Source of the DNA: Cruorifilaria tuberocauda
Taxonomy: Eukaryota; Nematoda; Chromadorea; Rhabditida; Onchocercidae
Direction of reading: 5' to 3'
NCBI GenBank assembly: GCA_013365365.1
Contig: JABVXU010000040.1
Location: forward strand, 206,478-270,477
Length of the DNA: 64,000 bases
Shown here: positions 218 to 54,253 of the stretch, in pieces
How positions within the stretch are numbered: position 1 is the first letter of the stretch
Layout: each line of letters begins with the position of its first letter
Notes under the pieces: model-generated
Database searches by the model: none
What the model saw: the letters and a program-made list of their open reading frames with translations, nothing else
Told to the model about the DNA's origin: nothing
Program-made: the position numbers and the translations under genes

Positions 218-301
218 CAGAAGTGAAGGAATTATATAAAATTTTGACTAAAATGGCATTGTAAAATATACTGTAAAAGTAGTGTTAGTGAAGATATATA
301 A

Positions 302-1168: not shown

Positions 1169-1171
1169 CTT

Positions 1172-1540: not shown

Positions 1541-1541
1541 T

Positions 1542-5795: not shown

Positions 5796-5801
5796 ATCTA
5801 A

Positions 5802-6971: not shown

Positions 6972-7047
6972 TAGAATGAACTCAGTTAATTGAGATAAGT
7001 TGAAGGAAAATATTACTCCTCAAGTGTTATTTTATAATTTCCAGGTA

Positions 7048-7551: not shown

Positions 7552-7646
7552 AAGCTTTTACTCTGAACCATTGAACATATATAAATTTTACTACGAACAT
7601 TAAAAAGTGTCAATAAAACTCTCGAATACCATTTCTGAATGAAGTT

Positions 7647-8078
7647 TCACCGAAAAGGTTTTACGATAACTGTAATAATTATAATTATCATTAATATCGT
7701 AACTGTCTCGTTTAAGATACGGAAATAAACATGAGCTTTTTTGTTTAAACCCATTGCAAAACTTTTTCTATGTTTTGCGAGTAATATATGAATAGTAAAC
7801 ATAAAGAGTAGTGCTAACACTTTCACATGAAACCATCCTTCATGGTAAGACTCTCTTATAATCATAAGTGTAACACCAAAAACTAGTGAAGAAAGCATTG
7901 CAGGATTTACAATACATTTAAGTAGTCTTTTCTCCATTATTTGAAGTAAGCTGTCACTCTCTGAACCTAGCTTTACAGTTGTGTGATAGACATAAAGCCT
8001 AGGCAAGTAAAGCATACCTGCCATCCACATAATGACAGAAATAACATGAAATGCCTCAAGCCATCGGTAATAATCCAT
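7647..8078 (-). CDS. hemJ: HemJ-type protoporphyrinogen IX oxidase (UPF0093)
   Basis: A 143-residue membrane protein with four hydrophobic segments that matches the HemJ family, the oxygen-independent protoporphyrinogen oxidase of many alphaproteobacteria, acting at the penultimate step of haem synthesis. The conserved N-terminus is YYRWLEAFHVISVIMWMAGM (residues 3-22), holding the essential His, with LPRLYVYH after it. The second conserved block is GWFHVKVLALLFMFTIHI (about 81-98), holding the essential Lys. Length agrees with the family. It is divergent from pdhA with a 54-base gap (8079-8132) that must hold both promoters. Filarial worms lack most of the haem pathway, so this endosymbiont gene is of biological weight. 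Confidence 0.88.
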   Translation of the reverse strand: MDYYRWLEAFHVISVIMWMAGMLYLPRLYVYHTTVKLGSESDSLLQIMEKRLLKCIVNPAMLSSLVFGVTLMIIRESYHEGWFHVKVLALLFMFTIHILLAKHRKSFAMGLNKKAHVYFRILNETVTILMIIIIITVIVKPFR

Positions 8079-8132
8079 TATAAAATGTTAAAATTTCTGA
8101 TATCATCTAAGTTTAATAAAAAAGAAATTGAT
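8079..8132. promoter_or_regulatory. Divergent hemJ/pdhA intergenic region
   Basis: Only 54 bases separate the starts of hemJ (minus) and pdhA (plus), so both 5' control regions must lie here or overlap the genes. AT-rich throughout; no exact promoter boxes are claimed. Confidence 0.35.
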
Positions 8133-9125
8133 ATGAAAGCAGAAAGTTTCACTAAAGACCAGGTGATTGAGTTCTATAGAAAAATGCTACTAATACGTAA
8201 ATTTGAGGAGAAGGCAGGGCAATTATATGGGATGGGATTAATAGGCGGGTTTTGTCACTTATCAATAGGGCAAGAAGCAGTTGTGACTGGAACTCATGCT
8301 GCATCAAAGCCCGGAGATGCTTTTATTACAAGTTATAGAGACCACGGCTTAATGCTTGCATGTGGTTCTGATCCGAATATTGTGATGGCAGAACTGACAG
8401 GCAAAAAAACAGGATGCTCAAAAGGCAAGGGTGGGTCAATGCATATATTTGATATTGAAAAAAAATTCTTTGGTGGACATGGAATAGTTGGTGCACAGGT
8501 TCCGATTGGTACTGGAATAGCATTTGCTAACAAGTATAAGAAAGAAAACAACGTAGTGTTTACGTATTTTGGTGATGGTGCTACAAACCAGGGACAAGTA
8601 TATGAATCTTTTAATATGGCATCTTTGTGGCAATTGCCTGTAATTTATATTATAGAAAATAACGGATATGCAATGGGGACCTCTGTGCAGAGATCGACTT
8701 TAGTGACTGATCTATATAGAAGAGGAGAGAGTTTTGGTATTCCTGGAAAGCAAGTTGACGGAATGGATTGCTTTTCTGTTTATGAGGTAACATCTGAAGC
8801 AGCTAAGTATGTACGCAGCGGTAAAGGGCCCATTTTGCTTGAAATGAAGACGTATCGATATCGTGGCCATTCAATGTCAGATCCTGCTACTTACCGCTCG
8901 AAAGAAAAAATTGAAAATATAAAACAAAATTACGATCCTATAAGCACTTTAAGGAAACATATGATAGATAGTAAGATTGTTTCAGAGGAAGGGTGTAAAG
9001 TAATTGATAATGAAATACGTGATTTAGTGAAAAAATCTGAAGATTTTGCAAAAAATAGTAAAGAACCAGATATTGATGAATTGTGTATTGACGTTTACAA
9101 GTCAAGTAACCACTCACTGTGGTGA
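8133..9125 (+). CDS. pdhA: Pyruvate dehydrogenase E1 component, alpha subunit
   Basis: PdhA forms the thiamine diphosphate-dependent E1 with PdhB and decarboxylates pyruvate for the PDH complex. The start at 8133 gives 330 residues, the usual length for Wolbachia/Rickettsia-type E1 alpha. Upstream in-frame ATGs at 7983 and 8085 would run into or towards hemJ and add sequence without similarity. Recognisable blocks are FYRKMLLIRKFEEKAGQLYG (about residues 13-32), GFCHLSIGQEA, the KGKGGSMH segment with its active-site histidine, and the TPP-binding motif FGDGATNQGQVYESFNMA ending in the conserved ENN (about 146-178). The phosphorylation-loop-like YRYRGHSMSDPATYR is also present. pdhB is not in the window. 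Confidence 0.96.
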   Translation: MKAESFTKDQVIEFYRKMLLIRKFEEKAGQLYGMGLIGGFCHLSIGQEAVVTGTHAASKPGDAFITSYRDHGLMLACGSDPNIVMAELTGKKTGCSKGKGGSMHIFDIEKKFFGGHGIVGAQVPIGTGIAFANKYKKENNVVFTYFGDGATNQGQVYESFNMASLWQLPVIYIIENNGYAMGTSVQRSTLVTDLYRRGESFGIPGKQVDGMDCFSVYEVTSEAAKYVRSGKGPILLEMKTYRYRGHSMSDPATYRSKEKIENIKQNYDPISTLRKHMIDSKIVSEEGCKVIDNEIRDLVKKSEDFAKNSKEPDIDELCIDVYKSSNHSLW

Positions 9126-9238
9126 GTTAATGATGTTTTATAACGGGACGGGATTCATTTCCTCCCTATGCTTGATTTGTGTTATATTCATTATATATTT
9201 CTATGTTCTGCTTTTACACTATCTAGATAAATGTTTTT

Positions 9239-10171
9239 TCATCCTTCAAAAGGATGATGTAATGCTCTGATAGACTTTTCAAAGTGTTCAGGGCAAAGGG
9301 CAGTAATGGTGATTTTTTTATTACTTGGCAGTTTTAAGGACAAAGAATATGAATGTAGGTGAATTTTATTGACTGCTCCATCAACAAAAGCTCTTTTACC
9401 ACCGTATTTACCATCACCAAGAATAGGACAATTTATATGAGCTAGATGTGCTCTTAATTGATGAGTCCTACCAGTAATTGGTTGTAATTTTACATAAGCA
9501 ACATTCCTTCCTAGTCTTGCTATAATTGAAAAGTGTGTAACAGCATTCTGTGGTGAATTTTTGTCGACAACCATTTTTTCTTGGCCTGAAATATACTTTT
9601 TTACCAATGGAAGATCTATTGTCCCTTTATCCATACTAGGCATACCAGAAGTTAGTGCTAAATAAATCTTTTTTATTCTTCGTCCTTTAAATTCTTCCAT
9701 AAGAAACCTTGCAACATTAGTATTACGCGCAAATATCATTACTCCACTTGTATCTTTATCTAACCTATGTACAATTTTTAATGTTTCTCCTTCTCTGATT
9801 TGATCAAGTAAATCACTAATACTAATTTTTGTCTTTACACTACCCTGAATAATTACTCCCACAGGTTTGTTTATAGCCAGTATATATTCATCTTCATATA
9901 ATATGTTGTCTTTCAGTATATTTACTAACTCTTGGTTATGTTTAGTATTGAAATTAGTCCTTTTTATATAATTAAAGTACTTTATTGTTATGACCTGCCC
10001 AGAGTATACTCTATCACTTGACTTTGCTTTATAATTGTCAACCTTGATCAGTCTTCTCCTTAAAGATTTTTCAATCATAGACTGCTTTAGGTCTGGGAAA
10101 ATTCTTCTTATGTACTTATCTAGCCTAACGTTATCATCTTCTATCGGTATAGTTTTAGTACTTCGAGACAT
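9239..10171 (-). CDS. rluC: 23S rRNA pseudouridine synthase, RluC/RluD family
   Basis: A 310-residue RluA-superfamily enzyme that isomerises uridines in 23S rRNA. The N-terminal S4-like RNA-binding domain covers roughly residues 12-70 (DDNVRLDKYIRRIFPDL...). The catalytic motif HRLDKDTSGVMIFARN (about 135-150) holds the nucleophilic Asp. The C-terminal block GRTHQLRAHLAHINCPILGD (about 232-251) followed by KYGG is also diagnostic. RluC and RluD cannot be separated safely from sequence alone; RluC is my preference because of the N-terminal wording and length. It converges on pdhA with about 110 bases between stops. Confidence 0.9.
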   Translation of the reverse strand: MSRSTKTIPIEDDNVRLDKYIRRIFPDLKQSMIEKSLRRRLIKVDNYKAKSSDRVYSGQVITIKYFNYIKRTNFNTKHNQELVNILKDNILYEDEYILAINKPVGVIIQGSVKTKISISDLLDQIREGETLKIVHRLDKDTSGVMIFARNTNVARFLMEEFKGRRIKKIYLALTSGMPSMDKGTIDLPLVKKYISGQEKMVVDKNSPQNAVTHFSIIARLGRNVAYVKLQPITGRTHQLRAHLAHINCPILGDGKYGGKRAFVDGAVNKIHLHSYSLSLKLPSNKKITITALCPEHFEKSIRALHHPFEG

Positions 10172-10566
10172 TTTGTTATTTATAAAAACTTCTAGTAGAA
10201 CATCAATTATCGATATTGACCCAATATCAACTGCATGATACTACATAGGTAGCGGACATTAAAATTAAGATTTTATAAAATCTTGTTAAATTTAACATAA
10301 ATAAGCTGCTTCTCATCTCAATGAATTAGCTCATTTACTCGCAAAAAGCTTTTTTGATCTCATATTCTTCTACTTAATGAAGTAAAGATTTGCATTCAAG
10401 CATGACGCTGGAAGATTCTATTGTCAATAGAATGTTCTGTATTATTAGTTAAATATATTAAGCATGAAGCTTAAAACTTTACTATCAACTCTCTACAGAT
10501 CTGGTAAAACCAGACTTGCTTAAAATTATTTAATTAGTTATAGTTCGAACTTTCAATTGTAATAAA
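10172..10566. other. Non-coding gap between divergent genes
   Basis: About 395 bases between the divergent starts of the pseudouridine synthase gene and the antiporter gene. It must hold both promoters. AT-rich with no named remnant and no tRNA that I can see. Confidence 0.4.
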
Positions 10567-11859
10567 ATGATTGCTTTTATTCCTTTACTTATTTTTTTAG
10601 TCTTACATCTTGGAAGCGGAACCTACTTCTTCTTCACTGGAACTGATAATCCACTTCATCAGATTTCTCCCGTAGTTTGCTTATTGCCAGCACTATTTTT
10701 TGCCATCTCATGCAGACCAGGTAAAATTCAACATAACATTGACACTGTCATTGAAGGTATGGGTGATAAAAATACCCTTACTATGTGTTTGATTTTCCTA
10801 TTTTCTGGAGCGTTCTCTTCTGTTAGCCAATCAATTGGTAGTGCAGATACTGTTGCTAATTTGATTCTCAATTTTCTTCCAGCAAAGTTATTGTTGCCTG
10901 GAGTATTTTTGACCTCTGCTTTTATTTCAACTGCAATCGGAACATCCATGGGAGTTGTTGCGCTAATGGTACCAATCGCAGTTAATTTAGCAAAAAGTGG
11001 AGCTTTTGATCTTGAGATAGGAGCTGCAACTGTAGTTGGTGGTGCAGTATTTGGTGACAACTTATCAATGATATCTGATACCACTATTGCATCTGTTTCA
11101 TCACAGGATGCTACAATAAAGGATAAACTTCAAATAAACTATAAAGTAGCATTTATTGCTAGCATTATAACACTAGCCTATCTGGTAGTAACTTCAGATA
11201 ATACAAAGATTGTTACTATATCAAGCTTAGATTGTTTTTCAATAATAAAAGTTATTCCTTACATTTCTTTAATAGTCATGGTACTATTTGAAGTTACTAC
11301 ACTAGTAGTAATAACTGTAAACATAGTTATTGCTGGTGTACTAGGAGTAACTTTTTTTGACTATTCAATCATTCAATTTTCTCACGACATATATAAGGGA
11401 TTCAGGAAGGTGAATGAGATAGTACTGTTTGCACTATTTATTAGTGGGTTAAGTAATATAATGTATAAACAAGGTCAAAAAGCATTGTATAAACTTATCG
11501 ATGAAAGTAGAATCACAAAAACTAAAGCTGAATTTGCGATAGCAGGAATAGCATCCATATTTACTGTTTTGGTTGCTAATAATACTATTGCTATTCTACT
11601 AAGTGGTAGTATTGTAAAAAGGCTTGCAAAAAAACATGATATTGCGCCATACCGTAGTGCGTACTTACTAGACGTTTTCGCTTGTGCTACAAAAGGTATT
11701 TTGCCTTATGGTTCTCAATTATTGCTAGCAGGTAGCATAGCTACTGTATCGCCTATTTCTTTGTCAAAGCAAGTACATTACTGTTTTATCTTAGTAGTAG
11801 TTACAGTAGGAGAAATAATTGTTAACAGTAAGAAAGAAAAGGGCTCTATGATACTGTAA
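10567..11859 (+). CDS. Na+/H+ antiporter, NhaC family
   Basis: A 430-residue polytopic membrane protein with about 11-12 hydrophobic segments that fits the NhaC-type antiporter superfamily. The most diagnostic part is the central re-entrant region FISTAIGTSMGVVALMVPIA (about residues 120-139), followed by AATVVGGAVFGDNLSMISDT (about 154-173), where NhaC relatives carry the conserved G-x-x-F-G-D-x-x-S-P/M-I-S-D-T motif. A second half-repeat shows NNTIAILLSGSIVKRLAK near residue 340. Likely role is export of Na+ in exchange for H+ at the cytoplasmic membrane. Substrate is inferred from the family only. The frame is intact and the gene converges on argS with about 35 bases between. Confidence 0.85.
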   Translation: MIAFIPLLIFLVLHLGSGTYFFFTGTDNPLHQISPVVCLLPALFFAISCRPGKIQHNIDTVIEGMGDKNTLTMCLIFLFSGAFSSVSQSIGSADTVANLILNFLPAKLLLPGVFLTSAFISTAIGTSMGVVALMVPIAVNLAKSGAFDLEIGAATVVGGAVFGDNLSMISDTTIASVSSQDATIKDKLQINYKVAFIASIITLAYLVVTSDNTKIVTISSLDCFSIIKVIPYISLIVMVLFEVTTLVVITVNIVIAGVLGVTFFDYSIIQFSHDIYKGFRKVNEIVLFALFISGLSNIMYKQGQKALYKLIDESRITKTKAEFAIAGIASIFTVLVANNTIAILLSGSIVKRLAKKHDIAPYRSAYLLDVFACATKGILPYGSQLLLAGSIATVSPISLSKQVHYCFILVVVTVGEIIVNSKKEKGSMIL

Positions 11860-11894
11860 TTTAATTACGGATAGACTTATAAAATTTCTTTAGT

Positions 11895-13601
11895 TTATTT
11901 CATCTCTTTCAGAGGCTCTATATTAAAAATAGAAAATCCGGAAGCAATGATGTGTGCTAAAGCTTGAACAAGGAATATTCTTGCAGCAGTCAGATCTAAA
12001 TCATCTTTCAGTATAAATCGCATATTCGAATCGTTTTTCCCATATCCCCATAAAGCATGGAATGCTTCTGCAACTTCAAGTAAATAAAAAGTAATTCTAT
12101 GTGGCTCATAAAGCTTTGCTGATACTTCTACTATACTTGGCCATTTTGCCAAGATTTTTATAAGTGATAGCTCTCCATCATTTTTCAAAAGTGAGGGATT
12201 TGCGTTTGGAAGTTCTTTTGGAGCATTGCGCATTAATGAGTGAGCACGAGCGTATGCATATTGCACGTAAAAAATAGGATTGTTTTTTGATTGCTCCTTT
12301 ACTTTTGCAAAATCAAAATCAAGAACCATGTCGTTTTTTTGCGTTAGCATTGTAAAACGGGTAATATCCCTGCCAACTTTCTTAACTACATCCCTTGCTG
12401 TCAGAAAATTTCCTGATCTTTTGGACATTTTAACAGGTTTTCCATTTTCTAAGAAATTTACAATATTATGTAGCTTTACCTCTATCTTTGCCTTGTTGCC
12501 ACTTAACGCGGATACAACTGCTTTGAGCCTTTTGATATAGCCACCATGATCACTGCCAAGCTCTACTACCATATTGTTAAAACCGCGTGATATCTTATCA
12601 AAATGATAGGCAATATCTGATGCAAAATAAGTCCAGCTTCCATCTTCTTTTTTTAACGCACGATCAACATCATCACCAAACTTTGTGGAGCAAAACAACA
12701 TCTCTTTTCTAGAAGCCCAATTTTTTTTTTCCTTACCTTTTGGTTTTTCTAGATATCCCTCATATACTAAACCCTTATTAGATAATATCTTTATGCTCTC
12801 TTCAATTTTACCACTTTTTTGTAACTCATATTCTGAAGTAAAGACATCATGACTTACTCCAAGTAAGCGCATATCTTCTTTTATGAGTCTTAAAATAGAA
12901 TTTAAGGTATAATTTCTAATTACTTGATAATCTTGCTTTTCTAAGAGACCTTTGCCATATTTTTTGCTTAATCCTTCTCCTATTGCTTTTAAATATTCAC
13001 CTGGATATAAACCTTTTTCAATACTAATCTTCTCTCCTAGGGCTTCTCTATATCGTAGATATACTGATCGGATTAAATTATCTATCTGTGCTCCAGCATC
13101 ATTAATGTAATACTCCTTAGTGATTTTATATCCGACTTTTTCTAGCAAATTTGCTAAGACGTCACCAAATACTGCTCCTCTTGCATGACCAATATGCAGT
13201 GGACCAGTTGGATTTGCAGATACAAATTCAAGATTAATGGCTTGGTTATTTCCAACGTTTAGAGTACCAAACTCTGTTTTCTGCTCATTTATTTGTTTAA
13301 CAATCCCGTGCCATACTTCTATTTTTAAGTACATATTGATAAAACCAGGGTGAGCTATCTCTACTTTCTTAACTTCATTAAAGAGTTTAAATTCTTTTGC
13401 TAGTACTTCTGCAATCTCAATAGGGTTTTTCCTTTCATATCTTGCAATCACAATAGCAACGTTTGTATAAATATCTCCACGCGCTCTATTACTTGGTGGC
13501 TCTAAGATAAAATTCTCTACCTCCATATTTATAATACCACTTTGCTTTAACTCATCTAGTTTTCTAGAGATTAGCGAGGAAATTCGTTTAAAAATGTTCA
13601 T
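11895..13601 (-). CDS. argS: Arginyl-tRNA synthetase
   Basis: A 568-residue class I aminoacyl-tRNA synthetase that charges tRNA-Arg. The N-terminal ArgRS additive domain occupies about the first 100 residues. The HIGH signature lies in the typical ArgRS context EFVSANPTGPLHIGHARGAV (about residues 123-142). The KMSK motif appears as KPVKMSKRSGNFLT (about 394-407), a complete KMSK form that ArgRS of some lineages lack. The C-terminal DALR anticodon-binding domain includes the YAYARAHSLMRNA segment. Length and motif order fit alphaproteobacterial ArgS. The reading frame has no breaks, which matters for judging whether this segment is a decaying nuclear insert. Confidence 0.97.
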   Translation of the reverse strand: MNIFKRISSLISRKLDELKQSGIINMEVENFILEPPSNRARGDIYTNVAIVIARYERKNPIEIAEVLAKEFKLFNEVKKVEIAHPGFINMYLKIEVWHGIVKQINEQKTEFGTLNVGNNQAINLEFVSANPTGPLHIGHARGAVFGDVLANLLEKVGYKITKEYYINDAGAQIDNLIRSVYLRYREALGEKISIEKGLYPGEYLKAIGEGLSKKYGKGLLEKQDYQVIRNYTLNSILRLIKEDMRLLGVSHDVFTSEYELQKSGKIEESIKILSNKGLVYEGYLEKPKGKEKKNWASRKEMLFCSTKFGDDVDRALKKEDGSWTYFASDIAYHFDKISRGFNNMVVELGSDHGGYIKRLKAVVSALSGNKAKIEVKLHNIVNFLENGKPVKMSKRSGNFLTARDVVKKVGRDITRFTMLTQKNDMVLDFDFAKVKEQSKNNPIFYVQYAYARAHSLMRNAPKELPNANPSLLKNDGELSLIKILAKWPSIVEVSAKLYEPHRITFYLLEVAEAFHALWGYGKNDSNMRFILKDDLDLTAARIFLVQALAHIIASGFSIFNIEPLKEMK

Positions 13602-14710
13602 TAATCAAAAAGCTAAAATCATGTACAGTATAGTAAATAAGTGGCATGAGTTGAAAGCTTCTCATAATGTATCTCGTGAGCATAAAGAGAAATTGCAAGA
13701 AATAAATATTCCTTTTCTTTCCATAATTAATAACAGTCAGAAACTTCATAACCTAAGCATATATTGATTCACTCTTACTGAATAGACTGCTGATAGCAAA
13801 TGAATATGTAAAAACATATAATCTACATTTTCTTTTTCATCTTTTACTCTACTTAAAGTATTAAGTAAATATTGGTTATTGTCTTAGCATGGTACTATTC
13901 ATTTTTGATTCCTCTACATGTTTCCTTACTTTCATCATCTTTGATTTCTGTATTGCTAGAGTCATAAATGTGGCACATTATACATTACTATATCATACTG
14001 AACTGCTCTAGGAGAGGTTACAGCAGTGCTCGATATATCAGTTAAAATCTCTCTAAGATGGAGAATAATACCTAACTTAAAAGATGTGCAATTAAGAACA
14101 TAGTAATCGAACCGCACGTGTGTAGAAAAACTTTTGTATTCTTGAGGAAATGTTTTTATATATTCTGTTACCAAACTTATCATGTGGTATCATGCTTTAC
14201 ATCTGATAATAAAGTTTATCCATGTTATGTTATGGAACAGACATCCTATATATGGCTATAAAATTAGATAGCAAGTCACAAGATCATTTTAAGACACCTA
14301 TTTTAAATTATCACAGGCAAAATGATTGCAATTTTGTAGCATAGGAGCCAAGTTTGGTGTGTTTAAGTCATCCTTACAAGCTGGTAGATTTATTTATATC
14401 TTATATTCTTATATAGATAAACTCAAGTAGTGTTCACATACTTCAAATGTAAGGAGATAAAGCATATTATACTAAAGCAACACTTATATATGTATAAATT
14501 TTTAAAATGACTTTTTAGTGAATAGAATCAGTGCACTACGATGATTGTGGTGTATATCATGATAACTCTAACATAGATAAAAACTATGGGCTAAAACTAA
14601 TAGCATGAGTACATATCTATGAGCTAAATATCTAGAAATATAAATGATTTTACTCTGAGTTTTAGGATATTAACTTTAATTTAAGCCTCATTCTATCAAA
14701 ACTATATTTG
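13602..14710. other. 1.1 kb gap with small ORFs, probably decayed genes
   Basis: No complete gene. A 48-codon ORF (13,621-13,767, plus) and a 73-codon ORF (13,962-14,183, minus; contains LGIILHLREILTDISS) look more protein-like than chance but match nothing I know. They may be remains of lost Wolbachia genes. The rest has stops in all frames. Confidence 0.4.
13621..13767 (+). CDS. Small ORF, 48 residues, unknown
   Basis: An ATG-started ORF beginning 20 bases from the argS start on the opposite strand. The product begins MYSIVNKWHELKASHNVSRE and is charged and helical in look. I do not recognise it. It could be a real small gene or the surviving end of a broken one. Confidence 0.3.
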   Translation: MYSIVNKWHELKASHNVSREHKEKLQEINIPFLSIINNSQKLHNLSIY

Positions 14711-16417
14711 CTATATTTTCGCCAATTTTGCATATAGTCCCTTTTTACGCATCAGGGAGTCATGAGTTCCTACTTCTTCTATTTTCCCCTGATTAACTAC
14801 TACTATCTTATCTGTTTTTAGTGTGGACGATAGCCTATGCGTAACCATTATCGTCGTTCTGTTTTGCATTAATTTGTTTAGTGCCTTCTGCACGAGGTCC
14901 TCACTTTTGTAATCTAAGGCAGAAGTTGCCTCATCTAACATTAGAATCTGAGGATTTTTGAGCATGGCTCTCGCTATTACAATACGTTGTTTTTGTCCTT
15001 CAGAAAGCTTTAGTCCTCTTTTCCCTACAAATGTATCAAATTTATTAGGTAGCTTATCAATAAATTCCATTGCATAAGCACTAATGGCTGCTTGTTTTAC
15101 TTCTTCATACTTAGCACCCGGTTTACCGTATAGTATATTTTCCATTATTGAGCAAGAAAACATCATGTGATCTTGCGGCACTAAACCAAATAACAATCTG
15201 AGGTTACTTAGTGCAATTGACTTAATGTTGTACCCATCAATAGTAATGCTACCTTTACTTGGATCATGAAAGCGAAGCAAAAGTTTTAAAATAGTGCTTT
15301 TACCACTACCAGAGGGTCCTATGATTGAAATAGACTGACCTACCTTTATGGAAAAGGATACATTGCTTAATACTGGTTTATCAAGGTGAGATTCATAGAA
15401 AAATGTTACATTGTTAAATGCAATTTCTTTCTGAACATTAGAAATTTTTATAGGATTGCTAGTGTCCACTATAGAGCTTTTTATACCTTTGAATTCAAAT
15501 AAATGCTCCACTACCCCAAGGCCTCGTTGTAAATCACTAACATTATCACTTAAATTATTTATAGCTCCTGCTGCAAGCGCTGAGTAGAACACAAATGAAG
15601 ATAGCTCTCCAATAGTCATATTACTGTTTAAGACTTCTTTGATACCAAAAAAGAGCAAAATAACTAATGAACCTATTACACATAAAATAATCAAAGTTAC
15701 CAAAATAGCACGTAAAAGAACCAATCTTATGTATGATTCAGATACTGAGTTCAAGTGTTTCTTAAAACGTATTTTCTCATTTTCTTCTAGTACAAATGAT
15801 TTAATAGTTACTATAGACCTGAAATTTTCTTCACTAAATGATGCTAATTCGCTTAACTTACTCTGGGCAAGGCGTGCATAACCTCGTACCTTTTTCCCAA
15901 GTGATGTCATAATGATCAATAATACTGGCACTATTGTAGCTGCATATGTAGTTAAGTATAGATTTGTACATAACAACATAACAACACTGCCAGTTAGTAA
16001 TACAAAATTTCGTAATATAGTAAGTAAGCTACTATTTATTATTGATTGAAGCACAGAAGTATCAGTGATTAATGCCGAAATTATATCTTGCACACCTGTG
16101 TTTTCAAAAAAACTTGGTTGTAAATCAGTAATGTTACTATATAAGTCATACCTGATCCTCGCAATAACTTTTTCACTACCAATTCCAATGAAATACAACC
16201 TAATAAATGCAGTAAGAGAAATGGACAGAATTATAAACATAGTCATTGCTAATTTGGTGATAAAATTATTCTCTGCGCTAGAGTCTATTATGCTGCTTAG
16301 CCCTCTACCAAAAAGGAGAATCATTAGAGCAGAAAATAAAACTGAAATAAAAGCTATAATGAAATAATGTAGATTAGGTTTTATATAGTAAAGTAACTGC
16401 CTGATTTCAGATCGCAT
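14711..16417 (-). CDS. ABC exporter, MsbA/lipid-type fused permease-ATPase
   Basis: A 568-residue half-transporter. The N-terminal half is an ABC type 1 transmembrane domain with six predicted helices (about residues 15-310). The ATPase domain follows: Walker A GPSGSGKST (about residues 365-373), the Q-loop in LFGLVPQDHMMFSCSIMENI, Walker B ILMLDEATSALD (about 492-503) and the switch histidine in MVTHRLSST. The ABC signature is LSEGQ, with Glu in place of the common Gly, directly before KQRIVIARA. This variant occurs in some exporters and should remain functional. The relatives are MsbA-like lipid and multidrug exporters; the cargo cannot be told. The neighbours, ubiE downstream and long gaps on both sides, give no functional hint. 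Confidence 0.92.
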   Translation of the reverse strand: MRSEIRQLLYYIKPNLHYFIIAFISVLFSALMILLFGRGLSSIIDSSAENNFITKLAMTMFIILSISLTAFIRLYFIGIGSEKVIARIRYDLYSNITDLQPSFFENTGVQDIISALITDTSVLQSIINSSLLTILRNFVLLTGSVVMLLCTNLYLTTYAATIVPVLLIIMTSLGKKVRGYARLAQSKLSELASFSEENFRSIVTIKSFVLEENEKIRFKKHLNSVSESYIRLVLLRAILVTLIILCVIGSLVILLFFGIKEVLNSNMTIGELSSFVFYSALAAGAINNLSDNVSDLQRGLGVVEHLFEFKGIKSSIVDTSNPIKISNVQKEIAFNNVTFFYESHLDKPVLSNVSFSIKVGQSISIIGPSGSGKSTILKLLLRFHDPSKGSITIDGYNIKSIALSNLRLLFGLVPQDHMMFSCSIMENILYGKPGAKYEEVKQAAISAYAMEFIDKLPNKFDTFVGKRGLKLSEGQKQRIVIARAMLKNPQILMLDEATSALDYKSEDLVQKALNKLMQNRTTIMVTHRLSSTLKTDKIVVVNQGKIEEVGTHDSLMRKKGLYAKLAKI

Positions 16418-17152
16418 TTCATTTTAAAGTTTCAAGAATTAAGTATATGGATTTCAGTTTTAGGGGAAAGGAGAAAGATATAATTTACTAGCTGAAAGCA
16501 AGCTTATTTATCTAATAAGAGTTAATTTGTAGATTTATCAGATAGATCAAACATAGGTTTACATAAGAATAAGTAATATTTTAGATATTACTACAAAAGT
16601 TAAGTAGGAATTGGTGATATATACTTTAGGTACTGGCCTTCTAAATAGCTCTTGAAAACAATGCCACTTTGGCTACCTGCACATGTGTGCAGGAAGGAAA
16701 GTTGGGACAATATTATTGTAAAAATGTAAATTGCCTTTTGCTAAATGGTTTAAGGAGAATGTTCAGTACTATGCTGCTAAGGTATATTTAAGGTAGGCTG
16801 ATAAATTAGTATTATAACCTGAAAGCTATCTCCATAGTTAGAGCTGGTTTATGCTATTTCCTAGTAAATCTTCTTGGTGTGAATCAGAGCTTACTATTTG
16901 AGTTAATAGCATTAATCAATTTATGTCTTTAATTAGTATTACCTAGTATTACTGAGTAAAACCCATAATGGGATTGCTAAACGAGAGGTTAAGTATGGTT
17001 TAGTAGTATATTACTATGATGTATGCAAAATATATTGTCTAAAATGAAGAATATGCAAGTGTATCTTTACTAAATTAAGAGTAAATCTTATGAGACCAAA
17101 AAGGGTACTAAATCTAAGTTAATACCATATGTTCTATATCACATTCTGATGA
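16418..17152. other. Non-coding gap, 735 bases
   Basis: Between the ABC exporter start and the ubiE stop, both on the minus strand. Stops occur in all frames and no named remnant or RNA gene was found. It presumably contains the promoter of the exporter gene and DNA left from lost genes. Confidence 0.4.
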
Positions 17153-17851
17153 TTATTTTACTCCAATATATAATGCCACTATTCCGCAGCTCATGTTATG
17201 AAACTCAACGTTATGAAACCCTACTTCTATAATTTCCATTTGGAACTCAGCTTGAGTTGGAAACTTTCTGATACTTCTCACTAAGTATTCATAAGGATTT
17301 TTGTCTTTAGCAACTAAGCCGCCGATTTTTGGGATTACTTTAAATGAATATAAGTCATAAAATTTATTAAACATCTTATTTTCATAGTTCGTAGGAGCAA
17401 ATTCTAAGCAAATGAATTTCCCGCTTAGTTTCAGTACTCTATATGCTTCACTTAAAGCTTTTTTACGATCAGAAACATTTCGAATACCAAAAGCTATTGT
17501 ACAGTAATCAAATGTTGAGTCTTCAAATGGTAAATTTTCTGCATTTGCGCATACCCAATTAAAATTAAGCTGGTTTGAATTTATAGCTTTATCAATTCCT
17601 CTGTTTAGCATATTTTGATTTATATCGCATACTGTTATTTGAGCACTTGGTTCTTTTCTTGCGATTCTTATTGCTATATCTCCTGTCCCTCCGGCAATAT
17701 CTAAAACCTTTGAGTCTTTTATAAAATACGTGCTACTAACCATCTTATCCTTCCATATCCTGTGCATACCAAAGCTCATCATGTCATTCATAATATCATA
17801 GTAGTCTGCTACAGTATCAAATACCTTCTTGACTAGTTGTGACTTACCCAT
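17153..17851 (-). CDS. ubiE: Demethylmenaquinone/ubiquinone biosynthesis methyltransferase
   Basis: A 232-residue class I SAM-dependent methyltransferase matching UbiE/COQ5, which C-methylates the quinone ring precursor in ubiquinone synthesis. The N-terminal family signature is [20 protein letters not shown] (about residues 7-26), followed by GMHRIWKD. The SAM-binding motif I is [16 protein letters not shown] (about 49-64). The UbiE-specific downstream block is [20 protein letters not shown] (about 114-133). The length is slightly under the usual 240-250 but complete. It is the last recognisable Wolbachia gene before the nematode sequence, and it ends with a normal stop, so the junction does not cut it. 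Confidence 0.95.
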
Positions 17852-18548
17852 TTTCTCTTTTTTTGTAAAAGCTAATTCAATCTAAATATATTTGAAATTT
17901 TTATTGAAATTGCGAAAATCCCTTCTATCATTAGAACTCATAACTATTTATGACTATTTTAAGAAGGTAAATAAATGTTGTATATAGATAATAAACCATA
18001 AGTACAACCTTTACAGATCTAGGAGTTAGTATAAGTACATGGTGAGAGAATTTCAAGATTCCTTATTGAATTATCTGGCTTTACCGATATAGAGCATACT
18101 CGAAAACAAGAAACAAACTACTGAAAAAGCAATTAGACTGGAATATGGGCTCTTAATATCTAGGAGATAATTTTTTATGCTTAACACTGCAAAATTTTCC
18201 GTTATGTAGCACATTTTTCTCTGAAATTTATCATCGAAATGAAGTGAGCACTCATCAAGCAATGGTAAGATGATATTGTTGTGAACTAAAGAATGAAGAA
18301 CTCGTCTAATTTTTGCTATGTCGTAATTAATCCAAAATTTTTGAAATTTGTAGGTACAAATATATATTATATGTATATATATATATGTGCTTTTTTTATC
18401 AGCTAGAAATAATTAAAAAGATTTATTGATGCGTAAGAGTTCATCCTATCTATCCTTATATCTCACTTGCTGTAGCACACGAATTTATGGGTCCTGTCGA
18501 TGTTTTACTAATAATGAAATGCAATTAGTATCAGTTGTTTATTTTCAG
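17852..18548. other. Junction interval between Wolbachia and nematode sequence
   Basis: The last certain bacterial base is the ubiE start (17,851) and the first certain nematode base is the exon acceptor at 18,549. A TA-rich stretch with an alternating TATATA run lies at about 18,360-18,388. There are no Ns. A minus-strand ORF at 18,071-18,262 ends in a hydrophobic segment and may be a Wolbachia remnant, which would put the switch at about 18,263-18,548. The exact breakpoint cannot be seen by eye. Confidence 0.6.
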
Positions 18549-21500
18549 TGATTGCAATGCCATCACGTTCAGGTTGTGCAGTAGCGCAGCAAATGCCACG
18601 ACAAGTCAAAAAAGTTTGTTTTCGAAAACTTTCTGATACCCTTAGATATGCTGATGAACCTGATATCTTGATATCCTGACTAATTTAAAGTTATAATCTT
18701 ATAAGATAGAAATTTTATGTATGGTAGTATGCTATCTGCCAGTAATTCATTTTTGTCGAAATTTATTTGGTTGTGAGATCCTACATACTTGCACGTATTT
18801 ACAAGTCGGATATTGTCTGTCATAGATTGCTTTAGGTCTCAGTGCCTACAATACCAGATATTAGTACTCAGAAATACGGAACATATCAAGCGAATGTTAT
18901 TGAAACAGTGGTGACAGGGAATCCTTACAAGTTTAAACACTCTGCTATATTGCAGCAAAAGAATCACTTATCGGAAAGTGGAAAATTTAATAAAAGTAAG
19001 CTTGTTAGTTTTCTTCGGATATAAGAAATCTACCTGAGTGGGCAGCCTTAGATTTCCCAATTGTCTCAGTGATCGTTATTTGCCGAAAGATCCACTAGTT
19101 AGCTTAGTGAATTATCACTCATCAATGTTTCAATGTGAAATTCAATTTATGGTTTTGGAAAATGATTTACTTTTATTTCATTCACATTATAGTGATCGAT
19201 CACTCTTCCTTCATGCAGGAATTTAAACGAAAATACAGCCGTTGAAAAATTTTCATTGTTTAATAGTTGTTACAGTCTGCAGTAGCTTGAATTATCTTCT
19301 TCTCATTTGTTGATTTGGAGCAAGAGGATGGGAAAGAACAATAAGCAGTTCAAACTATATTTTATTCTTTGTTAGCTTCAAATATTCCAAATCGATGAAT
19401 ATTTTTTAGGTCTTCTCATCAGCATTCCAGTAGTAAAGATCGTATTATTTATAACTGCTTTCATCTAAGACCTAATTATTTAGCTTTAAGAAAATGGGTC
19501 AAGGCATCTTTGCTTATAAATATTAAATTGGATGGATAAGCAGTGAGATTGGATCAGGTTTTAGTGTAAATAATAGCTATCTAACTTCTTACATGCTTAC
19601 TTGATATCAACTCCTGTACATTGGATTATAATTTTTTTCTACTATAGATTTCATTTTTTAATATAATTTCAGAACTTTAACTGGTATTATAGCTTTATTG
19701 TTGTGTTTTCTTAAAACTGTGATGCTTGTGTAAATTTTTGAAATAAATTTTTTCTTTGCTCTCATCGAAGATTAAGGAATGGGAGAATTTAAATAGGGAA
19801 GTCCATTTTTTTTTGGAAGCTTACTGATTTTTTGCATAAATGAAGCAGTCTTTGTAAATACAAAATCGCTGTCAAATGTGACACATATGCCATCCAGCAG
19901 CATGACAGCACTGATGGTACCTTCAAGTTTACATCTCAGCGACGATTCATATTCTGCTCATACGTTGTTCAACAGGAGAAGAGGTTTGTGCTGCTTATTT
20001 TCTTCATTTATTGTTTCCTACAAATTGTCTGACATGGTAATTAAGGTCAACAGATAAGACGATAGAACGACTGAAGAAAAAAAATATATATATATACGCA
20101 AAATATAAGCGGAAGATTTCTGCTTATCTTTTTTCTCCTTTCTCCTTCATTTCATAAAAAGAAGTTTGCATTTTTCTCTCCATTTGTTGAGGATTACTTT
20201 TGCTAGTATTCATCTGTTTCTATTAGTAATGAGAACATGTCGGAGTTTTGAAATGAGTTTAAATTTAGCTTTGATCAAGTGTAGTTACAAGTATGTGATA
20301 TTTATCAAAAGCCATCTGATGTCATTGAGCTGTGGAAAATTGAGCATGCTTGTTGACCTATGTTTTCCGTAATTTTGCTTTGACCACTATATGTATTTAT
20401 TTGGGTACAGACGGAAGACGTATGTCCTTTTTTTCTCTATTAGTTCTTATGATTTCCATCTTCTCACCTTGTCATTTTTTCATCTGCAAACCTTTAACAA
20501 TAATTGTTGAGAAAAATTTTGTTTTTCTAAATGCTTTTTTGATTGATGCTAGTTTTCCTTCTTGATAATATAGTGAGACTCCGGGCAGGTCACAGTATTA
20601 ATGTGTCTGAGTGAGCGGAAGAAGGATGCTATTCTTTAGCGCTAATGTCTACTAAAATGACAATTGTTATCTCTTTACGCTTATTCAGTGCCGCGGTTGA
20701 AAAATCTCTTGACTTGAATTGTATACATGTACGTAAATAATTAAGGTTGATGACGAATGAATGGCTGAAGTTAGTTGATAGCATTTAATGAAAGCAGACT
20801 ACCGGATCTAATGAGTGGTCCATCTCTTCCGATTTGAGCATTCCAATTTCCCTTATTTGTCAGTTTCTTCTACGTCAATTTCATAATTATTTCTAAAAGT
20901 TCCTATTATTTACTGTTTCCTTTCTACTGCTTTTTCATCTATCTGTTCATTCGAATTTTAGCATTGTGCATCCGGTAGGTGCTTGTCCGTCATTCTATCT
21001 ATCTATTTACCGGTGTCATAGGAACGAGCTGCACATGTACATAAGATTAGAAAAGCATGGGAAATAAAATCAACAACAAGCTGCAATGGTTTAGAATTCG
21101 ACAGTTCCTCAATATTGTCGCATTTTTTTGTGATAAGTGTGATGAATTGATGTTGTAATTGAATTTCATTTTAATATTAAGTAATGTTGAATCAAAGGAT
21201 GCCATTTCTATTTTATTTAGAGTTTTTTCTGCAAACCACATTGTTCTTTAGTCTTCTTCATTATGTAGTAATGATAGATGATTCGATGGCACCTTTTCTT
21301 CATCAGACATGAGCAGCATAATGATTCAGCAATAGAAATCTTCATTAGTTATATGATTTTTTTCTTCGAATATTTCAGGCGAAATATACTGATACTCATT
21401 TTTCTTCATACATATAAGGTTGCAAAGTGTGACGTAAGCATGAATACTAGATTTTATTATAATTTCGTTGTATTTGAAAATATCTCTTACTTCTCCATAC

Positions 21501-24500
21501 ATTATATAGCTCCAATGAGAGCATAAAATCGATATAATGTATGGAGAAGTAAGAGATTTTTGATTGAATGAAGTGTGCAATCAGTTGAAAATTGATATAA
21601 ATGGGGGTAAGATCACCCTTAATAAACATTTTCAGTATACTTGGTCGTGATGGATTAAATTTTTGAAGAGATTTTTATGATTGCGGGAATGTATCTGTAC
21701 GAATTTTTTTGCTGGCATCAACTGGAGATTCTTCGAACTGATTTTCTCTGGTGTTCAACCCACTAGATGTTGGTATTAAGTCCAATTGCTTGACGTAATA
21801 TTATTCTGACTTTTACGACTTTCATTTGTTGTTATTACTGATACTCTTTTGAATTTTACTCTATCGCTATTATAAAAAATTGTCTGGCATATTCAAACAT
21901 AAATCTTAAAATAGTAGCGTTGATCCATTAGTCCGAATCTGAATCTTTACTGAATCTTTTTGCTTTTTGAAAAATTTTTTTCCTGATTTTATAACAAATG
22001 CAACTCTATATTCTATGAGCTCCAGCATGTATAAAAAAAAAGATTAGTGAATAGTAAGTCTAACTTCGACTATTAAAGACACGAGACTGTTTTCATTTCG
22101 AAGTGAGACTAGCTTACAAATGTAATGTAATTACATCACAGAATTGTTATTTCAAATGACTGTTAGCTGCTCATTCTTACGCATCACATTTATTATCACA
22201 TGCATCTTTCTCATTTTAAAATGTTTTCATTTAAAAATTTAAAGAGACAAATTGTTTATACCTTTATGTATCATTCGGTAAAACGTTAGAGTGTATTGTA
22301 TTTGAGACAAAAAGAGTTTTGCATTGCAAATATTTCTTCCCTGCTGAACTATATAGGATTCTAGGGAAAGGTTAAACACTGATGTGACGTTTTGATTTTT
22401 GTGAATTTCTCTTGTTTGTCAAAAGTTAAGCTGAAGTGTTGGTGTCTGTTACTGCCGTCTGTGGATTCACTTTTGAAAGGAAAAATACAGTAGTAGTGTT
22501 TGGTTCCAAATCTGATTTATCTGTTCTATTTTTTTTTTAATTCTATTTCTGTTTTCAATACAATCAATTTTGGATGATCTCACAGACGAGAACGCATCAT
22601 TTTTTTCGGTCTTGTCATATTTTGCCTTCACATTCTCCTCATTTCTGTTCTTTTCATTTTGTGGAAATTATTGACTCTATGGCTGTTCCATTTTCGGTCC
22701 TTTTTTCGACCATTTTACTTGTGGACTAAATGTTAATAAATGTTTCTAAAATTGTCCATGATGTTACACCTGCATGTTTAACTGGACAAAATTTTTTCGA
22801 AAATTTTCCAAAGGCAGAAGTGTTTAATTTTTTCAGCTTCTCTACGCTGATCAAACCACGGGATTTAGATTTATCGTTGTTAATAGATAATGTTGAAGTG
22901 GAAAGAGTGACAAATAAAATCCAATAAAATACCATTGTTATAGTTGCTGTCATAGTGATTCTTGTGCATTATTAAACTGGCGGTGATTAATGTTTGATAC
23001 TTCTATTAAAAAGAATGTAGTATGATTGTATATAAAGGAGGTATTACTGATATTTTCCTTTCATTTTCCGCTTTTCATTTCAGTCTATTGTCGGAAGACA
23101 AATATGTGATTTTGTAGTGAAGTAAAATATAAAATATAACTGATTTGATGGGATAGGGCAGAAACTTTGAAACGAATTTTTTTCGAAAAATTAAATTTAC
23201 AGAAGACTACAAAAATTTTTTTCTGTAAAATACTATTATTATGTATGTTTGATGAAATAACGACATATTAAAAAGACATAATCTCTCGAGAAAATCATTT
23301 ATATAATAGTATTTAATATTAATACGGACAAGATTGCTTGTTTGGGTTAGAATGCAGCTTTTACTTTATACACAGGGGGAGAATTGCTCTTAAGTAAAGA
23401 ACTCAACAAATCAACAAAACACTTTTTACCTGTTACACTTTCACGAAAAGGTGTTTATTCTATAAATAAGTAACTATATTTCGTTTGTATGCATTTGGAT
23501 TTTAGTGTATTAAAGACTAATGGTGTATTACAAACTTCTAATGCATTGAAAATTTTTCGTCAACTTCAGCTTCATCATTCCTCTTCTGAAGCAGTAGTAA
23601 TATTTATAGTTCAGGTTAATTATTTTCTGATACTTCAGAAAAATCCGCATATTTGTTAATTTAATAGTTGATAAAATTTTTGGAGCTTTTTGTTACTATT
23701 TACTGCTTTGAATCTCATCTTCATACGTTGCCTTTGTTATTGATTGATTTCTCTATGATCTAATGCTGAGGAATTATAGTGTTTTTCCGTGGAGATAAAT
23801 TTGAAAATTTTTAACTAAAGATGTAAGAATTTTTCCATTCTCACATCAGTAATGAAAACATATCTTTTTACTAATCGTGCTGACAAGATTTTCTGCAATC
23901 GTTGAAGTGTCATTTAGATCACTTTCATTAGCATTTCTAACAGTGCTTTCTAGCCAGTTTATTCTTGATGTGATATGGAGTTATTAGTTAAAGAAAAAAA
24001 TTAATGAAAAAACTTTCAGATTGCTACATGAACTTGGAAAAAAGGGATTTAATTATAACATCACCATCTTCATCGGTTCCTTTGAAACAACGATTCTTTT
24101 ATATTGATGGACAAAATTTTGATAATGGATATGATCGAAATTCTGCCGGTCCTAGCTCAAGTTATGACAGTTCTTCTAGTTTCGAAAGTATGAAGGTATT
24201 AAAATTTTTCCATTTACTATGGTTTTCTCAACGTGCAATTAATCATAACAATTTTCTCATCGTAGCTTTTTAGAAACATAACTTTTGTCTCTTACCTTTA
24301 AATTTCAAGACTTCATTACTCATTTTCTCAGTATAAAGAGTTAACGTCCGTAAGATATTTTTCAAACTGACGAAGAAAAGGTTGGAAGTAAGAATGGAAT
24401 TAACAAAATTAAGTGGTCCGAAGACGATTTGTGTTATCACAACTTTATATAATCTGTTAGATGTTTTCTGTTAAAGTTTCGCCACTGAATGTACATGTAA

Positions 24501-27500
24501 ATTATAATTTTATAAGCGAAAGTTATAAACTTCTGTAGTGTTGCTTCCAAATTAAGGAGAAAATTTCGAATAGTTTGCTATTTATTTGTTTAAATCAGAA
24601 ACTTGGCGATATTGCAAAGATGGAATAGTAGAATTAGAGTAATAACATTCATCTTGTTTATGTCGATTAGAGCAATGTAAAATTAAAATCTTGATTGCTT
24701 GAGTATTTAGTGTATTTCAGAGTGGTTCCTCGCACGTTTGTTCAACAGTTGATACCCAAACCGCCATTGACAGTAATTAATTTTTAAAGACTTATCTCTG
24801 GCGTATTCGTTATATTGATTTTGTTATCTTTAATGATTTTGAGTGGTTTTCAGTTATAAATTTTTTGCTGACCTATAACATATTATTTCCACAGTCACAA
24901 AATCTACTTACCTGTTATATTGATATTCATAAGCTCCTATTTTTATTACAGTATGTGGATCATCATCGGATCTCTTGCTGAACAGTTCCCAATCACGTCT
25001 TTCAATGCAAAGCAGTAATAGTGGTGACGCTTCTTTCATTATAAATATGGCGAACGTGTTTGATGATTCAGGAGCTAAGCACATCGACGGAGATAACCTA
25101 GAGGATGTTTCTAGATTATCTTTTTCTGATATGATACTCAAAGGAATGCCGGTATGCCACATACACCTATATATAAAGAAATCTATATAATGGCAAAAGT
25201 TTTTGGTGACGTAAATGTAACGGAAGTAAAGTTAAATTTATATTGAAGTTAATTAATAAAAGCAATGTTATTTATTTTGATGAATTTACTGAAAAAATAT
25301 AAGTTATTTGTTTGATCTATTTTTTTCTCAACATTTATCCTCTGTTTTGATGATTTTGGAGTAGCCTTATTACTTATTTATTAAGTGAAATCAATATCAA
25401 AAATATTTTTTTCGTTTCAATTCGAGCTGTAACGAGACTAATGCTGTTCGTTCAGTCAATTTATCTAGTATGTTATAGGAAACAGAAATTTTGGCAACAT
25501 GGTTAGGTAATTTGGGTTATTCGGAATATTTAACAGCCTTCGTGACTCAAGGTTATGATCTTTCGACAATCGCTCGGATAACACCCGAAGATTTGACAGC
25601 ATTAGGAATAACCCATCCAGTTCATCGAAAATTTCTCATTTCTGAAATTCATAGGTGGCGTATAAGAGATAGTTGGCCAATAATGGTACCATCAGGAGAA
25701 TTAAGGTTATTTTTGTTGTTAACAATTTTCAAATTTATTGACTCTTGAATTATTTTGTTTCGTTTTGTTTTTCGAATAAAAGTAATATATTTAATGATAC
25801 GTTGAATAAATATTTTAGAGATTGGCTCCCATTAATTGGCCTTTCTGAATATATTAGTTTGTTCGAGGATCAGGGATATTGCAGAATTGGTGAAATTCAA
25901 AATTTTATGTGGGAAGACTTCGAAGATATCGGCATTGAGAAGTTGGGACATTTGAAACGTCTTGGCCTTGCTATCAAAAAAATGAAGGTTGCCTATTATT
26001 GTCATATTGGCTTAAATTTACATTGTATATATACTTAGATATGGCGATTGTTTTTGAATGAGATTTCGGCTCTATCAGTAGTGCTATTTTCGCGCTTTTA
26101 TCAGGTCTTGAAGAAGTAACTTGTCCAGCATTGCTTGGAAATGGTAATTACCAGATTCTCTTCTAGGTTGAGGAGATATATAATTGGGAGTTTTGTACAA
26201 GCCGAAATAGTTGTGTCGAGTAGTTAAAATATAGATATGGTATAAATTAGATGGAATGGACAACGAATTCTCATAGTTACAGTTATTACTTTTGTTCTGC
26301 ATTAGTGCTATTAATACTTGATGTGTTGCATTGAACGACAAACGGTTTCACTTATGGAAATTACTTGTGGGAATTATCTTTTTATAAAACAAATTATGTA
26401 TGGTGAATCTGGCGTGGAGTACTGACAAAGTTTTCACTGACCTGAATATCCTCATCTTTTATTCGTACAACTAAGTTTAATGAGAAATGGATTTCCCGAA
26501 CTTATTTTCTTAAGAAAATTATATTTCTCAGATTATAGAAGATGTCTATTTACCTAACTGTTTTCAGGACTATGAATTCGGTCGAATTCAGTCGAATGGT
26601 TTGCAGCAACTCGTGAGTGTTGCAGTACATCATAAAAAAATAGACGCTCAGGTAAGTTCCCTATTAAGAGGATCTAGTTCATTTAAGTAATGCTTTTCTC
26701 TGTCTTTTCAGGTCAATCTTTGTCCATTTCTTCTCCGAAATACGCTTCACAAATATTTAAAGGAATTCACATCATTATCATTTTCAAAAAAAGGACCTTT
26801 TTAGACAACTTGCGATGGTTTATGTTTACACCTGACACCACAACCTCTTGCTGCAATATCCACGTTTCACCCAAGAAGTTTGAGCGCATCGTACGATAAA
26901 TGTTGTATTACCGAAAAGCAACGTCCACGCAGTCGTGAGATCATTCCTACTGAGACACATGTACAAAAACAGGTAGTTCAGAGATAATTACTGAGACACA
27001 TGTACAAGAACAGGTAGTTCAGAGATAATTTATTGTGGGTAAAAATTGGAAATGCGGAAAATATTTGTCAGCTTGAATATTATTCTGTTCAGGTATATCC
27101 ATACTATAACTCAAATCTATTGAACGAGACGATTCCCTACCATTTGGAAAGATGTGATGAACAGTCGCTGGAATCGAACTTAAATAAGCGAAAAAAAAGT
27201 TCACTTCAGATAAATCCGTGTTCTCTTTTTCGAATCCCTTCAGAAAGTCGCCAGAAACATTTCATTGTCCGACAACAACTATCCATACTCCCCGCTAGGA
27301 TTTTAAGTACGGCTGACAATTCCATCATTTCTGATTCAGAAGACTATCCACCTCCTCCGGGTTATTATTTCAATTTCTTATCTTGACATTATTTGTAAAA
27401 ACTAGTAGATTCTCTCTGTATCTGAAATGTTTAGACATTATTTATCAGTTTTCGTTGGTGACATTGCTCTGAAAAAAGCACGTAAGTAGTACATTGCACA

Positions 27501-28317
27501 ACAGATGGAATAAAAAATAGAACAAAATATGTTGTAGTTGATACCGTACTAATTGTTGGATGACTAATTGTTTCCTAATAATAAATTTTTTACTTTTGGG
27601 TAGAATTATAGTGAATTTTGTTATAGTCATTTTTAAGGTGTTCATTTCAGCACCCTTAGCATGTGAAGGATCCGTTCAGGTTTTGAGATCAGCATTTAAT
27701 GAATCCGCAATGGCAGCAATAGCTAAATCAACAAACGGTAGTAATTTTGAACTGCTTGAGATTAATTCCTTCTCATTAAACAGTCAACTTTCATTTGCAA
27801 ATGATAACTGTGGTACAATAAAAAGTCGTGACAACTTATTACGGCACAGATGTAACGAAGAAGCGACAAGTACAACTTCTACACAGTCTAACACGTCACA
27901 TCGCAGGTAAACATATAACATGCAGATTTTCATCAAAAGTTCAGTCTGACCAATCTAAAATGCAAATGAACTTTTTAAAATTTTCAGATATTACAGCAAC
28001 GCTCCTTTTTGATGTTTTTGATAGAATTTTGAACAAAATTTGCATTTACTGAGAATTTGAAGAAAAGAACAAGTGATTTATCGTAATAAATTTTTGTTGA
28101 GTTTTCTAGTTAAACATTAATTGTAAAACTATTAATTATTAGTTGTAATACTTGTGTACTTTATTTGCACCGTTGAAGTTACTCAGCATCAGCGAATAAT
28201 GGCGATGTATTGAACGATATTGGTAGTATGCTGCAGAATTTAACGGATGAGTTGGATGCGATGTTATTACCTTCGCAGACCATCGGATATCCTCGCTATA
28301 AACAAATCCCATTCTAA
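18549..28317 (+). CDS. Caskin-like scaffold protein gene, 3' 13 exons only
   Basis: Thirteen exons chain by splice phase into one frame of 698 codons plus stop: 18549-18613, 18836-18995, 19849-19983, 24020-24195, 24721-24772, 24952-25151, 25479-25705, 25819-25987, 26568-26651, 26805-26972, 27093-27360, 27651-27906, 28179-28317. The product has a Ser-rich linker, two adjacent SAM domains, a Pro-containing low-complexity region and a conserved acidic tail. The SAM pair and tail match Caskin, a multidomain neuronal scaffold (ankyrin repeats, SH3, two SAMs, tail). No start codon exon, ankyrin or SH3 exon is present: the first exon enters with two bases of a split codon, so upstream exons must exist. 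They are displaced by the Wolbachia segment. ANKS1 or another tandem-SAM protein is the alternative, but the tail favours Caskin. Confidence 0.8.
19984..24019 (+). other. Large Caskin intron, 4.0 kb
   Basis: AT-rich intron between exons 3 and 4 of the Caskin-like gene. It contains the perfect hairpin at 21,482-21,557. A 65-codon ORF at 22,730-22,927 is not supported by splice sites. Nothing else is recognised. Confidence 0.6.
21482..21557. repeat. Perfect inverted repeat, possible small-RNA hairpin
   Basis: The arm at 21,483-21,507 (TCTCTTACTTCTCCATACAT followed by TATAT) is exactly complementary to 21,532-21,556, with one further A-T pair outside and a 24-base loop. The 76-base size resembles a microRNA precursor, although a fully paired stem is also what a recent small palindromic element would show. 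Confidence 0.75.
25479..25705 (+). CDS. Caskin-like gene, exon with first SAM domain
   Basis: The exon encodes ETEILATWLGNLGYSEYLTA followed by FVTQGYDLSTIARITPEDLT, then ALGITHPVHRKFLISEIHRW. This is a complete SAM fold: the W-L start of helix 1, the mid-loop G-Y-D, the E-D-L and the L-G-I-x-x-x-x-H-R-x-x-x-x helix 5 pattern. The acceptor is TTATAG at 25,473-25,478 rather than the nearby AACAG, because only the former keeps phase 0 with the preceding exon. Confidence 0.9.
25819..25987 (+). CDS. Caskin-like gene, exon with second SAM domain
   Basis: The exon encodes DWLPLIGLSEYISLFEDQGY and ends with WEDFEDIGIEKLGHLKRLGL plus AIKKMK. The W-E-D-x-x-x-I-G-I-x-K-L-G-H-x-K-R/K-L helix 4/5 wording is very close to the second SAM domain of Caskin. 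The short spacing from the first SAM domain also fits the Caskin tandem, which in mammals forms polymers. Confidence 0.9.
26948..27029 (+). repeat. 41-bp tandem duplication across a 5' splice site
   Basis: Copy 1 (26,948-26,988) and copy 2 (26,989-27,029) differ at one base of 41. Each contains the exon end CAG followed by GTAGTT, so the donor site of the exon at 26,805-26,972 is present twice. Reading through the first donor meets an in-frame TAA after four codons. Confidence 0.9.
28179..28317 (+). CDS. Caskin-like gene, terminal exon
   Basis: The last exon encodes a tail with DIGSMLQNLTDELDAMLLPS and ends in KQIPF before TAA. The D-I-x-x-M-x-x-x-L-x-x-x-L-D-A-M-L pattern is that of the Caskin C-terminal tail motif. 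The phase 2 junction with the preceding exon restores AGT (Ser). Confidence 0.85.
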
Positions 28318-28393
28318 CAGCAGATACAAACTTAGGGTTCTCTTTGTTTTTCTAATTATGATATTAATATTGTGAACTCGGGACCGATCTGAG

Positions 28394-28399
28394 AATAAA
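28394..28399 (+). terminator. Poly(A) signal of the Caskin-like gene
   Basis: An exact AATAAA lies 77 bases after the stop codon in AT-rich sequence. Confidence 0.6.
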
Positions 28400-54170: not shown

Positions 54171-54222
54171 ACACACACATACATACATACATACATACAT
54201 GTACACATAGACATAGACTCGC

Positions 54223-54253
<31 letters not shown>

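Follow-up and report, generated by a model that had tools for sequence, protein, structure and literature searches.

A junction between Wolbachia and nematode DNA in the Cruorifilaria tuberocauda assembly is most likely, for the main part, a product of faulty assembly and no sign of giant gene transfer

When a contig passes from Wolbachia genes into nematode DNA, it may record a lateral transfer into the nuclear genome (nuwt) or a fault of assembly. This question is raised by contig C444 (270,477 bp) of the Cruorifilaria tuberocauda assembly analysed here (G000; 71.7 Mb in 1,108 contigs). The window, by which we mean the whole 64,000-nucleotide stretch of DNA that was analysed, corresponds to C444:206,478–270,477. 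The first-pass annotation had described Wolbachia DNA joined directly to nematode DNA without Ns, and this description was borne out: the left side is gene-dense, the right side is ORF-poor, the sequence is unbroken, and the whole of C444, including the join, contains 0 Ns. The annotation had also put the Wolbachia genes at 17.85 kb or more. Bacterial genes are indeed present, but their true extent is 224,642 bp, the Wolbachia-like stretch occupying the start of C444 up to its very first base and being followed by 45.8 kb of nuclear DNA. The features of the window are as follows.

1–18,165 (C444:206,478–224,642), no strand: right end of the 224,642-bp Wolbachia stretch, recognized by coding density, collinearity with Wolbachia genome G015 and Pfam matches.
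17,153–17,851, minus strand: ubiE, 232 aa, the final bacterial gene ahead of the join (PF01209, E 2e-78).
17,852–18,165, no strand: Wolbachia intergenic DNA between ubiE and atpH (part-match to G007; adjacency of the two genes in G007, G015 and G016).
18,027–18,165, no strand: 139 bp repeated at the extreme end of contig C419 (C419:53,027–53,165, reversed).
18,165/18,166, no strand: point at which Wolbachia DNA gives way to nematode nuclear DNA and at which C419 diverges, running on into atpH.
18,166–64,000, no strand: nematode nuclear DNA up to the contig end, in which ORFs of at least 150 aa were sought and none was found, and which gave no match to the fetched Wolbachia sequences.
25,479–25,745, plus strand: exon with a SAM domain (PF00536, E 9e-14).
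25,742–26,035, plus strand: exon with a second SAM domain (PF00536, E 1.1e-12).

Scans of the window for tRNA genes and Rfam families came back empty, and searches of phage and plasmid collections returned nothing useful.

The bacterial part of the window has the appearance of an undamaged bacterial chromosome. ORFs of at least 150 aa cover 75% of positions 1–18,165 (density 0.75), while none of that length appeared in any of 20 base-shuffled versions of the same sequence. The window's bacterial part contains 20 ORFs of at least 100 aa, and dropping the five that lie opposite larger ORFs leaves 15. This reproduces the number of complete genes given in the first-pass annotation; its further claim that all of them lack stops and frameshifts stands for the six that overlapped fetched relatives, to which the comparison was limited and each of which keeps one frame open, with no stop, along 97% or more of its relative. 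Ten of the 15 were scanned against Pfam, and all ten had a match at E ≤0.001, nine of them above the curated cut-off. The scanned genes are read as ispE-, dapB-, dxr-, E1-, ABC-transporter- and ubiE-type, among others. Five matches occurring in order make C444:214,443–224,344 collinear with G015, a Wolbachia genome of 920,122 bp.

The same picture was obtained along the rest of the contig. The coding density of C444 is 0.737 as against 0.736 for the G015 loci, and 19 of the 21 C444 genes compared with fetched relatives match their relative along 97% or more of its length, in a comparison that left out those ORFs of the relatives without a match in C444. The other two are rpoBC, which is cut by the contig end, and one small ORF that matches from residue 27 on. 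The matched stretches are free of stops in 20 of the 21 genes, and the remaining one has two stops, both in the 7 codons that precede its open frame. Thus, none of the compared genes of the C444 Wolbachia stretch is broken, and the density is normal for a bacterium. The left end of C444 falls inside rpoBC (the name is our own reading), which it enters at codon 2,254 of 2,843, so that the contig offers only one nuclear flank; a longer insert could extend beyond this end. Relative to the Wolbachia genome G016, C444:191–200 kb and C444:223.6–224.3 kb (L062 and L047) are oppositely oriented, which means that gene order near ubiE has been rearranged between the two symbionts.

The nuclear side is of a different kind. 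Positions 18,166–38,000 (19.8 kb) gave one weak match of 63 bp when compared with three Wolbachia genomes. Of 88 ORFs of at least 70 aa on this side, 10 were taken for a Pfam scan, and two of these, at 25.5–26.0 kb, carry SAM domains, a pair that we take to fit a Caskin-like gene. The frame tried for the exon that the first-pass annotation had begun at 18,549 contained three stops. Simple repeats of the CA/TG type lie farther along, at window positions 54,171–54,253.

Where exactly one kind of DNA gives way to the other was located with a second contig. When the assembly was searched with window positions 17,800–18,600, the only matches were the window itself and the last 139 bp of C419. Read in reverse, C419 equals window 18,027–18,165 at 136 of 139 positions and then continues into ORFs read as atpH-atpA-greA-ribB. 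These genes stand beside ubiE in the same orientation in three of six Wolbachia genomes (G007, 957,990 bp; G015; and G016, 863,427 bp), and none of them was found within the 18 kb examined in the other three (G013, G041 and G021). Because the neighbors of ubiE are the same in three genomes, C419 carries the native Wolbachia continuation and the window departs from it at 18,165/18,166; the native gene order past the join is found on C419 and not on C444. The intergenic stretch 17,866–18,083 is 68% identical to G007, a similarity seen with neither G015 nor G016. A 6-mer classifier, which called 445 of 480 held-out Wolbachia windows and 75 of 110 held-out nuclear windows correctly, drops from Wolbachia-like scores at 17,701–18,200 to about zero at 18,101–18,300, a weak indication given that it scores much of ubiE near zero too. 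The TA-rich stretch at 18,360–18,388, which the first-pass annotation had proposed as a breakpoint or false overlap, is ruled out by the point at which C419 departs from the window, since it lies some 195 bp inside the nuclear side.

Two short sequences near the break deserve mention. The 20 AT-rich bp of window 18,390–18,409 recur exactly, but inverted, in the ubiE-atpH spacer of G015, a match that was not listed in the larger comparison with Wolbachia sequences; it is probably due to chance, a tiny scrap of nuwt being possible. On the native side, a perfect G+C-rich palindrome of 12 bp (positions 5,014–5,025 of L025, which is C419:48,000–53,165) sits 2 bp beyond the break, and a search of the 224.6 kb of Wolbachia DNA in C444 found it absent there.

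Within the shared 139 bp, the copies on C444 and C419 differ at 18,059, 18,088 and 18,092 (∼2%), and C419 starts 32 bp before the first of these differences. Such differences suggest two alleles, although three are few and consensus errors could produce them. All three relatives share the base of the window at 18,059 and that of C419 at 18,092; at 18,088, where the alignment is poor, each of them has a gap. As far as this alignment goes, the three sites favor neither copy as the changed one.

The Wolbachia in question can be named with some assurance. The UbiE protein encoded next to the join is identical at 232 of 232 residues to P0001, a single sequence present on two contigs, the longest of which measures 863,988 bp. 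The portion of the genome report cited here describes wCtub, the Wolbachia of C. tuberocauda (supergroup J), as a complete chromosome of 863,988 bp (CP046579) with PCR-confirmed circularity (PMC8116671). On the strength of this one protein comparison, the Wolbachia DNA to the left of 18,165 is most likely wCtub, a likeness known from that protein. The ubiE-atpH order reconstructed from C444 and C419 is also that of G016.

C419 itself appears to contain a similar jump between host and Wolbachia. At C419:19,213–22,384 (L029, forward), nuclear-looking DNA at 19.2–20.5 kb is followed by Wolbachia fragments, by valS from about codon 660 and by pyrF (both genes named by our own reading), and the contig is Wolbachia at 46–53 kb. 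The fragments at 20,474–20,585 and 20,713–20,884 are degenerate and of distant origins (76% to G015; 87% to window 16,557–16,726), so the succession reads as nuclear-looking DNA, nuwt fragments and then intact genes. Codons 19–696 of valS are found on C897:1–2,034, running to the first base of that contig and overlapping the valS of C419 by ∼37 codons. At the other end of the C444 Wolbachia stretch, C444:2–232 has a 96% copy on C887 and C444:159–274 a 90% copy on C641. Together with the copies shared by C419 and C444 and those of valS, the rpoBC end brings to three the number of contig breaks in the Wolbachia chromosome at which a stretch of ∼110–230 bp occurs twice. We infer that C887 and the left part of C419 are nuclear.

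Short pieces of Wolbachia DNA also occur elsewhere in the assembly. A search with window 1–18,165 gave at least 15 matches, namely the 139 bp of C419 and 14 of 60–303 bp at 70–93% identity, which are read as old nuwts; there was no second full-length copy among the matches listed. The first 2,253 codons of rpoBC gave matches of 49–400 bp only, and G015 800–820 kb returned no match, an empty answer that is uninformative for that search. Pure Wolbachia contigs have probably been taken out of the assembly. The missing second copy proves little because such contigs seem absent, so that a live counterpart of C444 would escape notice. The published host assembly, according to the same portion of the genome report, comprised 75.5 Mb in 1,888 contigs and was produced with the hybrid assembler Unicycler, the input being those reads that mapped to contigs classed as nematode (PMC8116671). 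Its figures agree only inexactly with those of the smaller assembly analysed here, which makes the naming of the species likely and no more.

Taken together, the sequence comparisons make it quite probable that the join in the window is a mis-join made during assembly, with the live Wolbachia chromosome on its left and nematode nuclear DNA on its right. The first-pass annotation had left the choice between a young nuwt and a chimeric assembly. A chimera is favored because the native continuation lies on C419, UbiE is identical to the protein on the 863,988-bp contig and C419 contains a similar jump; with a small real nuwt possible at the join, both halves of that proposal may hold in part. That a short real nuwt at this place caused the mis-join is a proposal to which we would give slightly less than an even chance. 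Under it, the nuclear genome would hold a short nuwt ending at 18,165 that is ∼2% off the live copy and still shares k-mers with it. In line with the behavior of Unicycler at such graph branches, paths would merge where nuwt and live copy are identical and part where they differ. The assembler would thereby have collapsed both copies and passed from the live chromosome by way of the nuwt into the nuclear contig, with C419 left over as a separate contig beginning those 32 bp ahead of the first difference. The join resembles the host-symbiont chimeric contigs of mixed assemblies in its abrupt switch, in the presence of the native continuation elsewhere and in the overlap at contig ends; it would differ from them in its possible trigger, a nuwt acting as a repeat.

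The principal competitor is a genuine insertion, a nuwt of 224 kb or more that would have entered an intron of the SAM-domain (Caskin-like) gene only very recently, its genes still intact because decay has not set in. The continuity of the contig without Ns agrees with this, unbroken genes in the comparison are what a very young insert should have, and fragments read as nuwts are present in the assembly; moreover, a giant nuwt identical to the chromosome would make the assembly graph branch in the same way. Filarial nuwts do resemble the locus in that Wolbachia DNA adjoins nuclear DNA, and short degenerate pieces of their type are found in this assembly, but the 224 kb seen here, without a broken gene among those compared, is unlike them. 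In the part of the literature cited here, the mean length of a nuwt is 434 bp for Onchocerca and 2,038 bp for Brugia, and the largest such region met with when 22 filarial genomes were surveyed measures 29 kb (PMC12693587), with nearly contiguous nuwt regions spanning ∼35 kb in Brugia malayi (PMC3849323). The survey as described there discarded any contig that resembled Wolbachia by more than 99% from end to end, a filter that may have cost it very young inserts (PMC12693587). A giant transfer would also call for another large and recent insert, this one on C419, with its end at the same point of the chromosome. Finally, the ∼2% difference over the last 139 bp is at odds with the unchanged ubiE alongside. 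By a hand estimate, a divergence of 3 in 139 should have given the 699-bp ubiE ∼15 changes, ∼11 of them altering the protein, and the protein has none relative to the 863,988-bp contig; if the three differences serve to date a nuwt, live chromosome is therefore the better reading of the DNA that extends to the left from ubiE. All in all, we regard a giant nuwt as improbable.

A mis-join could also have come about with no nuwt involved, through a long read or PCR product that was itself chimeric. This is a sub-case whose probability overlaps with that of the mis-join as a whole, and we hold it only tentatively, as something that may well be wrong. The G+C-rich palindrome just after the break on C419 could have left a gap in coverage or provoked template switching, the LEFT-SEQ protocol names chimeric reads among its concerns, and the alleles at the join, being silent as to which copy changed, leave room for it. 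By itself, however, an event of this kind accounts neither for the three differences in the 139 bp nor for the jump of C419 at a cluster of nuwt fragments. As for the idea that all of the bacterial DNA here belongs to a genuinely nuclear cluster of nuwts that is old and has decayed, the degenerate Wolbachia fragments elsewhere in the assembly would speak for it, but a coding density equal to that of the G015 loci and the absence of any broken gene among the 21 compared contradict it, and we give it practically no weight.

A mis-join of this kind has consequences beyond the present locus. Contigs of this sort, if read literally, would make nuwts seem more numerous than they are and give rise to mistaken reports of giant transfers. 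If nuwts truly cause such joins, they act as repeats across which assemblers pass from symbiont to host, and junctions of this sort should be treated as a warning sign. Were the insert real after all, no filarial nuwt reported in the cited part of the 22-genome survey would come near it in size (PMC12693587).

Wolbachia-like stretches in the same order as in G015 lie on two further large contigs, at C355:221,216–239,553 and C177:352,306–355,523, and these could be more mixed contigs.
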